A stretch of DNA of 64,000 nt from Crocinitomicaceae bacterium (GTDB taxonomy: Bacteria > Bacteroidota > Bacteroidia > Flavobacteriales_D > Crocinitomicaceae), in NCBI GenBank assembly GCA_030830895.1, contig JAURMC010000014.1:124001-188000 (forward strand). Reading direction: 5' to 3'. A program made the position numbers and the translations under genes. Under the pieces are notes generated by a model. The model made no database searches and was not told the origin of the DNA. It saw nothing but the letters and a program-made list of their open reading frames with translations. Below, one piece after another: positions 52,537-54,172 of this stretch (the stretch's first letter is position 1; every line of letters starts with the position of its first letter).

Positions 52537-53130
52537 TCACTTATGTTTTTTAAATTCTTCCCAAATCCATTGAATCATGGGGTAAGAATCCATCGTGTAT
52601 TGTTCTACATCCGAAAAATCAACAAAAGCAACTTTAGAAATACCTTCACTTGATTGTGGCTCTAAATGATAGTTTGGATCGGCGGACATGATATACCACA
52701 AAGTTTCTTTAAGTACAATTCTACCTTTCAAAGGGTATAGATGATGCGTAATAATAGGGTTTAAAGACTGAATGGTTAGATCCAATTTACCACACTCCTC
52801 CACTACTTCTCTCAAGGCGGCCTGCATTGGGTATTCATCCCCTTCAATCCAACCTTTTGGGAGATCCCAAACCTTGTTTCTAAAAATTAAAAGCAACTTG
52901 TTTTCTGATATTACGATTCCGCCGGCCGCTTTAATCAACTTAAATTGATCCTTGAATGCAGTAAATGTTGTATTCACACAACAATGTGTATTCGCTTGAG
53001 CGTGAATAGCTTCCCACCATTTCATAGATGAACTAATAGGTACTTCCGTAACCATTTCACAAACCTTCTGTTCATAACTACCGAAGAATAGTTTCAATTT
53101 CTCAGTAAAAACAATATAATTTTGAGCCAT
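52537..53130 (-). CDS. NUDIX hydrolase
   Basis: 197 residues. The Nudix box runs GWIEGDE-x7-REVVEECG and matches GX5EX7REUXEEXGU in full, so the fold should hydrolyse a nucleoside diphosphate linked to another moiety. The first 60 residues are an added N-terminal part of unknown role. LPKGWIEGDEYP is typical of the diadenosine/ADP-ribose-like branch, but the substrate cannot be decided. Its ATG overlaps the pyrE ATG by 2 bases on the opposite strand (CCATGG). Confidence 0.9.
   Translation of the reverse strand: MAQNYIVFTEKLKLFFGSYEQKVCEMVTEVPISSSMKWWEAIHAQANTHCCVNTTFTAFKDQFKLIKAAGGIVISENKLLLIFRNKVWDLPKGWIEGDEYPMQAALREVVEECGKLDLTIQSLNPIITHHLYPLKGRIVLKETLWYIMSADPNYHLEPQSSEGISKVAFVDFSDVEQYTMDSYPMIQWIWEEFKKHK
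53117..53124 (+). promoter_or_regulatory. -7 element TAATTTTG for pyrE, inside the NUDIX coding region
   Basis: Perfect TAnnTTTG match ending 4 bases before the pyrE ATG. It is read from within the first codons of the divergent NUDIX gene. Confidence 0.6.
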
Positions 53131-53773
53131 GGTTTATGACAAAGATAGCGCATTGCGCATTGCGGGTGAATTATTAAGAATTAAAGCAGTAAAACTCCAA
53201 CCGCAAGAACCATTCACATGGGCATCAGGTTGGAAATCGCCAATTTACTGTGACAATCGAAAAACACTTTCATTTCCTACCGTTAGGACTTACATCCGCC
53301 AACGCCTAGTAGATATCGTAGATAAAGAATTTGGAAAACCGGATGTAATCGCAGGAATTGCCACAGGAGGAATCCCTCAAGGAGTGTTAGTGGCTCAAGA
53401 TTTAGGGTTGCCCTTTATTTACGTGCGAAGTAACGTTAAAGACCATGGACTAGGAAATTTAATAGAAGGAACCTATGAAGCGGGGCAAAATGTGTTGGTA
53501 GTAGAAGACTTAATATCAACCGGCGGAAGCAGTTTACAGGGGGTACAAGCTCTGAAGGATGCTGGGATGAAAGTTAAAGGACTCATTGCCATTTTCTCCT
53601 ATGGGTTTCAAGTCGCTAAGGAAGCGTTTGATCTTGCGGAGGTCCCATTCATTGTCTTATCTGATTATGACCATTTAATTGAACAAGCTTTAAACTTGGA
53701 TTATATTAAGGAAGTAGAATTAGAAAAACTAAAAAAATGGAGAGAAATCCCCTCGGATTGGAATCCATCTTGA
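53129..53773 (+). CDS. pyrE: Orotate phosphoribosyltransferase
   Basis: 214 residues. PRPP motif VLVVEDLISTGGSS; orotate-binding TWASGWKSPIYCDNR; GIATGGIPQGVLVAQDL. It joins orotate to PRPP in pyrimidine synthesis, downstream of PyrB's product. It starts at the ATG formed by the shared CCATGG. The next gene (SRPBCC protein) begins 3 bases after its stop, so the two are probably one transcript. Confidence 0.96.
   Translation: MVYDKDSALRIAGELLRIKAVKLQPQEPFTWASGWKSPIYCDNRKTLSFPTVRTYIRQRLVDIVDKEFGKPDVIAGIATGGIPQGVLVAQDLGLPFIYVRSNVKDHGLGNLIEGTYEAGQNVLVVEDLISTGGSSLQGVQALKDAGMKVKGLIAIFSYGFQVAKEAFDLAEVPFIVLSDYDHLIEQALNLDYIKEVELEKLKKWREIPSDWNPS
53140..53147 (-). promoter_or_regulatory. -7 element TATCTTTG for the NUDIX gene, inside the pyrE coding region
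   Basis: Perfect TAnnTTTG match on the minus strand, 9 bases before the NUDIX ATG and within the first codons of pyrE. Confidence 0.6.
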
Positions 53774-53776
53774 CAC

Positions 53777-54172
53777 ATGCATATCATCAGTGATCAGTTT
53801 ACGGTTAATACGAACTGCGAAGCTATTTTAAGGTTTCTATCTACTCCCTCAAACCTAGAAAAAATCCTCCCGACTGAGCGAATTGAAAATTTCGAAGCAG
53901 ACCATGCCCAATGTAGCTTTAAAATACAAGGTGGTATTAAGATTAGCCTTGTATTTGTCTCACGATCAACGGAAAGTGTGCAGTATAAAAGTGGCGAGAA
54001 TAGTCCATTCCCGTTTGAATTAAAAGTAAATACAGAAGCGCTTAATGAACTTTGTACAGGCAGGCTTACATTCTTTGGTGAAACAACACCCTTTATTGCC
54101 ATGATGGCAAAAGGCCCACTCACAGCACTGTTCAACGACATGGGAAAAAGCCTTGTAATGGAATTTAAATAA
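53777..54172 (+). CDS. SRPBCC/START-like fold protein, function unknown
   Basis: 131 residues. The pattern FTVNTNCEAILRFLSTPSNLEKILP, then strands with RIENFEADHAQCSFKIQG and a long C-terminal helix, fits the SRPBCC (Bet v1-like) fold, which binds hydrophobic ligands. No catalytic residues can be named. It follows pyrE by 3 bases and overlaps birA tail to tail by 8 bp. This gene order (NUDIX, pyrE, SRPBCC, birA, rsfS, ftsH) recurs in Flavobacteriales, to my knowledge. Confidence 0.8.
   Translation: MHIISDQFTVNTNCEAILRFLSTPSNLEKILPTERIENFEADHAQCSFKIQGGIKISLVFVSRSTESVQYKSGENSPFPFELKVNTEALNELCTGRLTFFGETTPFIAMMAKGPLTALFNDMGKSLVMEFK

Follow-up and report, generated by a model that had tools for sequence, protein, structure and literature searches.

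Divergent gene overlaps are strongly under-represented in prokaryotes, probably because upstream regulation needs room (available portions of PMC2174442). At the bidirectional promoters described in E. coli, the two transcription starts lie beside or within one shared -10 element and are most commonly 18 bp apart (available portions of PMC12825309). In Bacteroidetes, the published -7 element TAnnTTTG is located 4-5 nt before the start site; in F. johnsoniae the start follows TAHHTTTG by 4 or 5 nt, with the T at -12 and the G at -5, and the -33 element is weak (available portions of PMC6847099).

The window analyzed here, a stretch of 64,000 nucleotides from a Crocinitomicaceae genome, contains a divergent gene pair, pyrE and a NUDIX hydrolase gene, that shares features with these systems and departs from each of them. 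As in prokaryotic divergent overlaps, the start codons of the opposite genes overlap; unlike in the usual view of such overlaps, regulation here appears to lie inside the partner's coding sequence. As at the E. coli promoters with their symmetrical -10 element, two opposite-strand starts are predicted within one polymerase footprint; unlike there, each start has its own box, the two boxes point inward, and the predicted starts cross. A shared symmetrical bidirectional promoter was rejected on this geometry, which fits convergent (face-to-face) overlapping predicted promoters. Comparison of related sequences makes it likely, in our judgment, that this is a zero-spacer divergent pair in which two housekeeping (sigma-A type) promoters are reciprocally embedded, each in the coding sequence of the partner gene (Table 1). 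A search of the open-licence literature for pyrE-Nudix divergence, overlapping start codons and face-to-face promoters gave matches available in part, and we did not recognize the arrangement among those listed.

Table 1. Features of the pyrE-NUDIX start region, in window positions.
Feature	Positions	Strand	Evidence
pyrE, orotate phosphoribosyltransferase, 214 aa	53129..53773	+	ORF; TIGR00336 above cut-off
NUDIX hydrolase, 197 aa, divergent from pyrE	52537..53130	-	ORF; PF00293 above cut-off
CATG palindrome with both start codons	53128..53131	.	sequence; CATG at pyrE start in 73/77 genus genomes
TGA in pyrE frame, just upstream of pyrE ATG	53123..53125	+	sequence
TAA in NUDIX frame, just upstream of NUDIX ATG	53134..53136	-	sequence
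pyrE -7 box TAATTTTG, within NUDIX codons Gln-Asn-Tyr; T at -12 from ATG	53117..53124	+	
NUDIX -7 box TATCTTTG, within pyrE codons 4-7 (Asp-Lys-Asp-Ser)	53140..53147 (read 53147..53140)	-	
Predicted pyrE transcription start (A of ATG, leaderless)	53129	+	inferred from 4 nt spacing (PMC6847099, available portions)
Predicted NUDIX transcription start (leader about 5 nt)	53135	-	inferred from 4 nt spacing (PMC6847099, available portions)

The pyrE product scores 133.1 bits against TIGR00336 (cut-off 106.8), and the NUDIX product 45.1 bits against PF00293 (cut-off 21.1). The best PDB sequence match of the NUDIX protein is the Ap4A hydrolase 3i7u (E 1.4e-9, residues 68-163), and we take GWIEGDEYPMQAALREVVEECG to be its Nudix box. 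Just downstream of pyrE, at 53777-54172, there is a 131-residue ORF with no Pfam or NCBIfam match at E 0.001. An earlier note on this DNA described two divergent ATGs sharing two bases within CCATGG, flanked by two perfect TAnnTTTG boxes 15 bases apart, and direct reading confirms this to the base: CCATGG occupies 53127-53132, the pyrE ATG 53129-53131 (+) and the NUDIX ATG 53130..53128 (-), and the boxes face each other across 53125-53139. In-frame stop codons stand two codons before each ATG (TGA GCC ATG for pyrE, TAA ACC ATG for NUDIX), so neither gene can start further upstream. Among 49 divergent ORF pairs on a 387-kb contig of the window's genome (C11), two have a two-base overlap, and after these the closest pair is separated by a 46-base gap. 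The second CATG-sharing pair on the same contig comprises Peptidase_C92 (L314:701-1369, -) and DUF6702 (1368-1874, +).

Both boxes fit the consensus of the Bacteroidetes sigma-A (sigma-ABfr) -7 element, including the TAHHTTTG refinement (PMC6847099). They differ from the usual promoter of this type in lying within the opposite gene's coding sequence and in having no -33 element, as neither box is preceded within 25 bases by a TTTG or TTG in the window sequence. The 25 bases preceding the NUDIX box include 14 that are G or C, whereas F. johnsoniae promoters are AT-rich at -18/-28. The window shows no enrichment of the motif (74 matches versus 80.45 +/- 9.20 in 100 shuffles); at this chance-level density a single box means little, and enrichment was dropped as evidence for promoters. 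By our calculation at this density, the chance that both boxes fall in slots of 5 bases at the distance expected for a leader is about 1e-5 for a given pair. Conservation is better evidence than this estimate.

Box positions relative to ORF starts were counted on the assumption that each ORF starts at its first ATG. On contig C11, 33 of 308 ORFs have a box with its T at -15 to -11 before that ATG, with a peak at -12 (13 genes), versus three such boxes at 2036 internal ATGs. Counted in the same way over 200 kb each, boxes of this type precede 8 of 176 ORFs in a genome of the same family (G125) and 7 of 162 in one of the same class (G180). By this comparison the window's lineage may be rich in leaderless mRNAs.

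To follow the pyrE box through relatives, grouped by the genus, family, order and class ranks of the genome collection searched, we gathered 246 loci; the nine nearest named contigs have 78-93% PyrE identity. Counts refer to 221 non-redundant contexts, after removal of identical contexts, of L001 and L181, and of L042, L061 and L129, which lacked a usable start. The T of the box falls at -14 to -12 from the pyrE ATG in 187 of the 221 (34/36 in the genus, 23/23 in the family, 41/51 in the order, 32/48 in the class and 57/63 among named loci). Upstream of pyrE, 174 of the 221 loci carry a divergent ORF with a Nudix motif, a count in which a missing motif does not mean absence for those loci that have only about 300 bases upstream. 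In 14 of the 41 class loci with the motif, all NUDIX ATGs are located over 20 bp upstream of the pyrE start codon. Eight of these 14 keep the pyrE box at -14 to -12, in different sequence (for example L159, L160 and L162), and thus NUDIX coding alone does not explain its conservation; in the other six the box is at -16 (two loci), -23, -27 or -29, or is absent.

The distance from the pyrE box to the ATG equals the 4-5 nt reported between box and start site (PMC6847099), as in leaderless flavobacterial mRNAs, and a leaderless pyrE mRNA is therefore predicted. Judging by this spacing, transcription of pyrE most likely begins at the A of its start codon. Leaderless mRNAs are only 5.5% of those mapped in F. 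psychrophilum (available portions of PMC9723704), whereas here leaderlessness is predicted for one gene in 187 of 221 loci across a class. In the same work a pyrE start site of F. psychrophilum was assigned to a sigma-54 promoter. A promoter of this kind was considered for our locus as well. The sigma-54 consensus is GG-N10-GC; no such site is present on the + strand between 52829 and 53190, and the candidate was rejected.

The NUDIX box was surveyed in all 86 genomes of the genus present in the collection, of which 81 have pyrE and 77 were used (the pyrE start is cut in G001, G016, G260 and G270). The earlier note had proposed checking relatives for both boxes and both start codons, and in the genus the pyrE box is at -14 to -12 in 75 of the 77 genomes, the CATG is present in 73 of 77, and a NUDIX box is found in 69 of the 70 genomes that bear the gene. 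From the overlapping NUDIX ATG, a frame of at least 100 codons is open in 64 of the 73 CATG genomes. The NUDIX box takes one of two forms, a strict one at +11 (46 of the 77 genomes; 45 of the 70 NUDIX-bearing ones) or a relaxed one, TAnnTTTA, at +25 (25 and 24 genomes, respectively), the latter ending in A rather than in the nearly invariant G. No genome has both. On the tree, the +25 genomes fall into a single group with G013 and G024, and the +11 genomes make up most of the remainder; box-to-box spacing differs by group, at 15 bp (16 bp in four genomes) or 29 bp. Elsewhere in pyrE such boxes occur at 0.00 per 57 bases (genus loci). Two genomes at contig ends, G262 and G266, are in neither the NUDIX-bearing 70 nor the five genomes without NUDIX at the pyrE locus, here called NUDIX-less.

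Three of the NUDIX-bearing genomes deserve separate mention. G012 keeps NUDIX, apparently starting at an inner ATG (MYEVF), with an imperfect pyrE box, TACATTTA, and no visible NUDIX box. In G233 and G255, counted as NUDIX-bearing, the frame from the overlapping ATG is broken after 54 and 32 codons, respectively; both keep the pyrE box and a NUDIX box (relaxed at +25 in G233, strict at +11 in G255). They may be either fresh pseudogenes or assembly errors.

The distribution of the NUDIX box bears on the explanation that only the pyrE promoter is real here, CAAAGATA within pyrE being a by-product of the peptide (D/N)-K-D-(S/T/R) and NUDIX being transcribed from elsewhere. Peptides like (D/N)-K-(D/N)-(S/T) are indeed frequent at the pyrE N-terminus, the window's NUDIX box has neither -33 nor AT-rich support, and the strict box is missing from most family, order and class loci. 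Outside the genus the strict +11 form is found in 0/23 family, 1/51 order, 1/48 class and 15/63 named loci (at least six of these 15 being close relatives of the window), and as a class-wide feature it was rejected, since it is frequent only in the genus and some named loci. The relaxed +25 form is found in 19/23 family, 29/51 order and 5/48 class loci. At the +25 site the Val codon is GTA in 41 of 46 order Val codons, versus a background of 0.30; this favors a promoter but is only suggestive, as codon bias near starts could contribute.

Codon usage within the genus argues against the peptide as the source of the box. In all 46 NUDIX-bearing genomes outside the +25 group, pyrE codon 4 ends in C (GAC 23, AAC 19, CAC 3, ACC 1), although the residue encoded alternates (Asp 23, Asn 19, His 3, Thr 1) and the window's genome ends 26% of its Asp codons and 29% of its Asn codons in C. 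The +25 group has no need of this C, and there codon 4 is AAT in 16 of 24 genomes. Together with the failure of the +11 and +25 boxes to co-occur in any of 77 genomes, and with a NUDIX box in 69 of 70 NUDIX-bearing genomes set against the strict form in none of the NUDIX-less ones, this leaves a lone pyrE promoter rather unlikely.

The losses of NUDIX amount to a natural experiment, in which the box within pyrE decays once NUDIX is gone, while the pyrE box mostly survives in a fossil stub. The five NUDIX-less genomes (G013, G018, G024, G026 and G109) represent at least three independent losses: one shared by G109 and G018, one in G026, and one or two in G013 and G024. The strict NUDIX box is present in none of the five and the relaxed one in G026 only. 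The pyrE box is kept in four, that of G018 lacking the final G, and sits in a decayed NUDIX stub, for example MPQKYKVF; the remnant in G026 is MPQKYKVFTEQS followed by a stop. G018 and G109 still have AAC at pyrE codon 4, and the sole break in their NUDIX box is at codon 6 (GAG).

Identities to NUDIX-bearing sisters were calculated without gaps, and values away from the start are lowered by indels. On this measure, G026, G013 and G024 are 0.85-0.92 identical to their sisters over -30 to 0 and 0.24-0.46 beyond -60, versus 0.88-0.96 and 0.38-0.63 among the sisters themselves. For G018 and G109, identity to the sisters is only 0.62-0.65 over -30 to 0 and 0.23-0.37 beyond -60 (0.94 and 0.61-0.78 among sisters). 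NUDIX-less branches account for 6% of the length of the tree, which includes 74 of the 77 genus genomes (three partial genes were left out), and NUDIX-box losses concentrate on them (3/5 events, p = 0.0019; 4/6 events, p = 0.00017). For this test the three to four events were counted by eye on the tree, G026 was taken as a loss, and G012 and the +11/+25 switch were the events elsewhere. We regard this as strong but not final evidence, based on few events, that loss of the NUDIX box tracks loss of NUDIX. Conservation of both boxes in the genus, combined with the disappearance of the strict NUDIX box in all five NUDIX-less genomes and the survival of the pyrE box in four of them, supports the proposal of the earlier note that each promoter lies inside the other gene.

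In this reciprocally embedded arrangement, the first NUDIX codons would include the pyrE -7 box, and pyrE codons 4-7 the NUDIX -7 box. Leaderless pyrE RNA would begin at 53129 (+) and NUDIX RNA about 5 bases before the NUDIX ATG (53135, -). The promoters would face each other, and the 5' ends of the two RNAs would cross by about 7 nt. From this geometry, exclusion of one polymerase by another, which the earlier note read as mutually exclusive initiation, is expected sterically, and is likely a by-product rather than a proven switch.

A stronger version holds that selection has made the exclusion a regulatory switch, with polymerase at either promoter shutting out the other so that pyrE and NUDIX are made alternately. 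The 15 bp between the boxes should sterically forbid joint occupancy at the footprint size generally assumed for the polymerase, the divergent Nudix-motif ORF recurs at most of the loci surveyed (174/221), and semi-synthetic derivatives of E. coli bidirectional promoters do compete under an activator (PMC12825309). Against these points, basal activity was too low for competition at the five E. coli bidirectional promoters tested in the same source, the spacing of the boxes varies between groups (15-16 or 29 bp), spaced pairs make up 14 of the 41 class loci with the NUDIX motif, and pyrE was retained through at least three losses of NUDIX. Given the variable spacing, the spaced pairs and the lack of basal competition in E. 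coli, we take exclusion to be a likely by-product and consider a selected switch quite improbable. A still broader scheme, in which the embedded pair is class-wide, exclusion and run-through at the crossed starts couple pyrimidine synthesis to NUDIX activity, and both mRNAs are leaderless or nearly so and share one CATG, appears to us similarly doubtful.

The reciprocally embedded promoters also point to how the start codons may have come to overlap. Many relatives offer NUDIX a start codon 8-10 bases upstream of the pyrE ATG (MYKVF), an ATG that falls inside the pyrE box because TACATTTG reversed is CAAATGTA. If a leaderless pyrE has its box at -12 and its ATG is preceded by C, the resulting CATG automatically provides an antisense ATG in frame with the NUDIX N-terminus, three codons before MYKVF. 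Within the genus the inner ATG has mostly turned into AAA, AAG or AAT, and its loss would leave the overlapping ATG as the remaining NUDIX start. This is probably a simple evolutionary route to the overlap. That the overlap is instead a gene-calling artefact, one gene really starting further downstream, is very hard to credit: pyrE does have an in-frame TTG at codon 9, and NUDIX of other lineages can start at the inner ATG, 9 bases downstream of the overlapping one, but the window has AAT in place of this inner ATG, 225 of the 243 loci with usable starts have their nearest pyrE ATG exactly where the window does (duplicates included), and the box at -12 suits a start at the overlapping pyrE ATG.

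The usual view is that divergent genes require space between them for their promoters. This pair leaves none, and its promoters are seemingly written into the N-terminal codons of the partner genes, which suggests a route to promoters hidden in coding DNA and cautions that conserved N-terminal codons may be regulatory. The pair offers a clean system for testing crossed-promoter interference in Bacteroidota.
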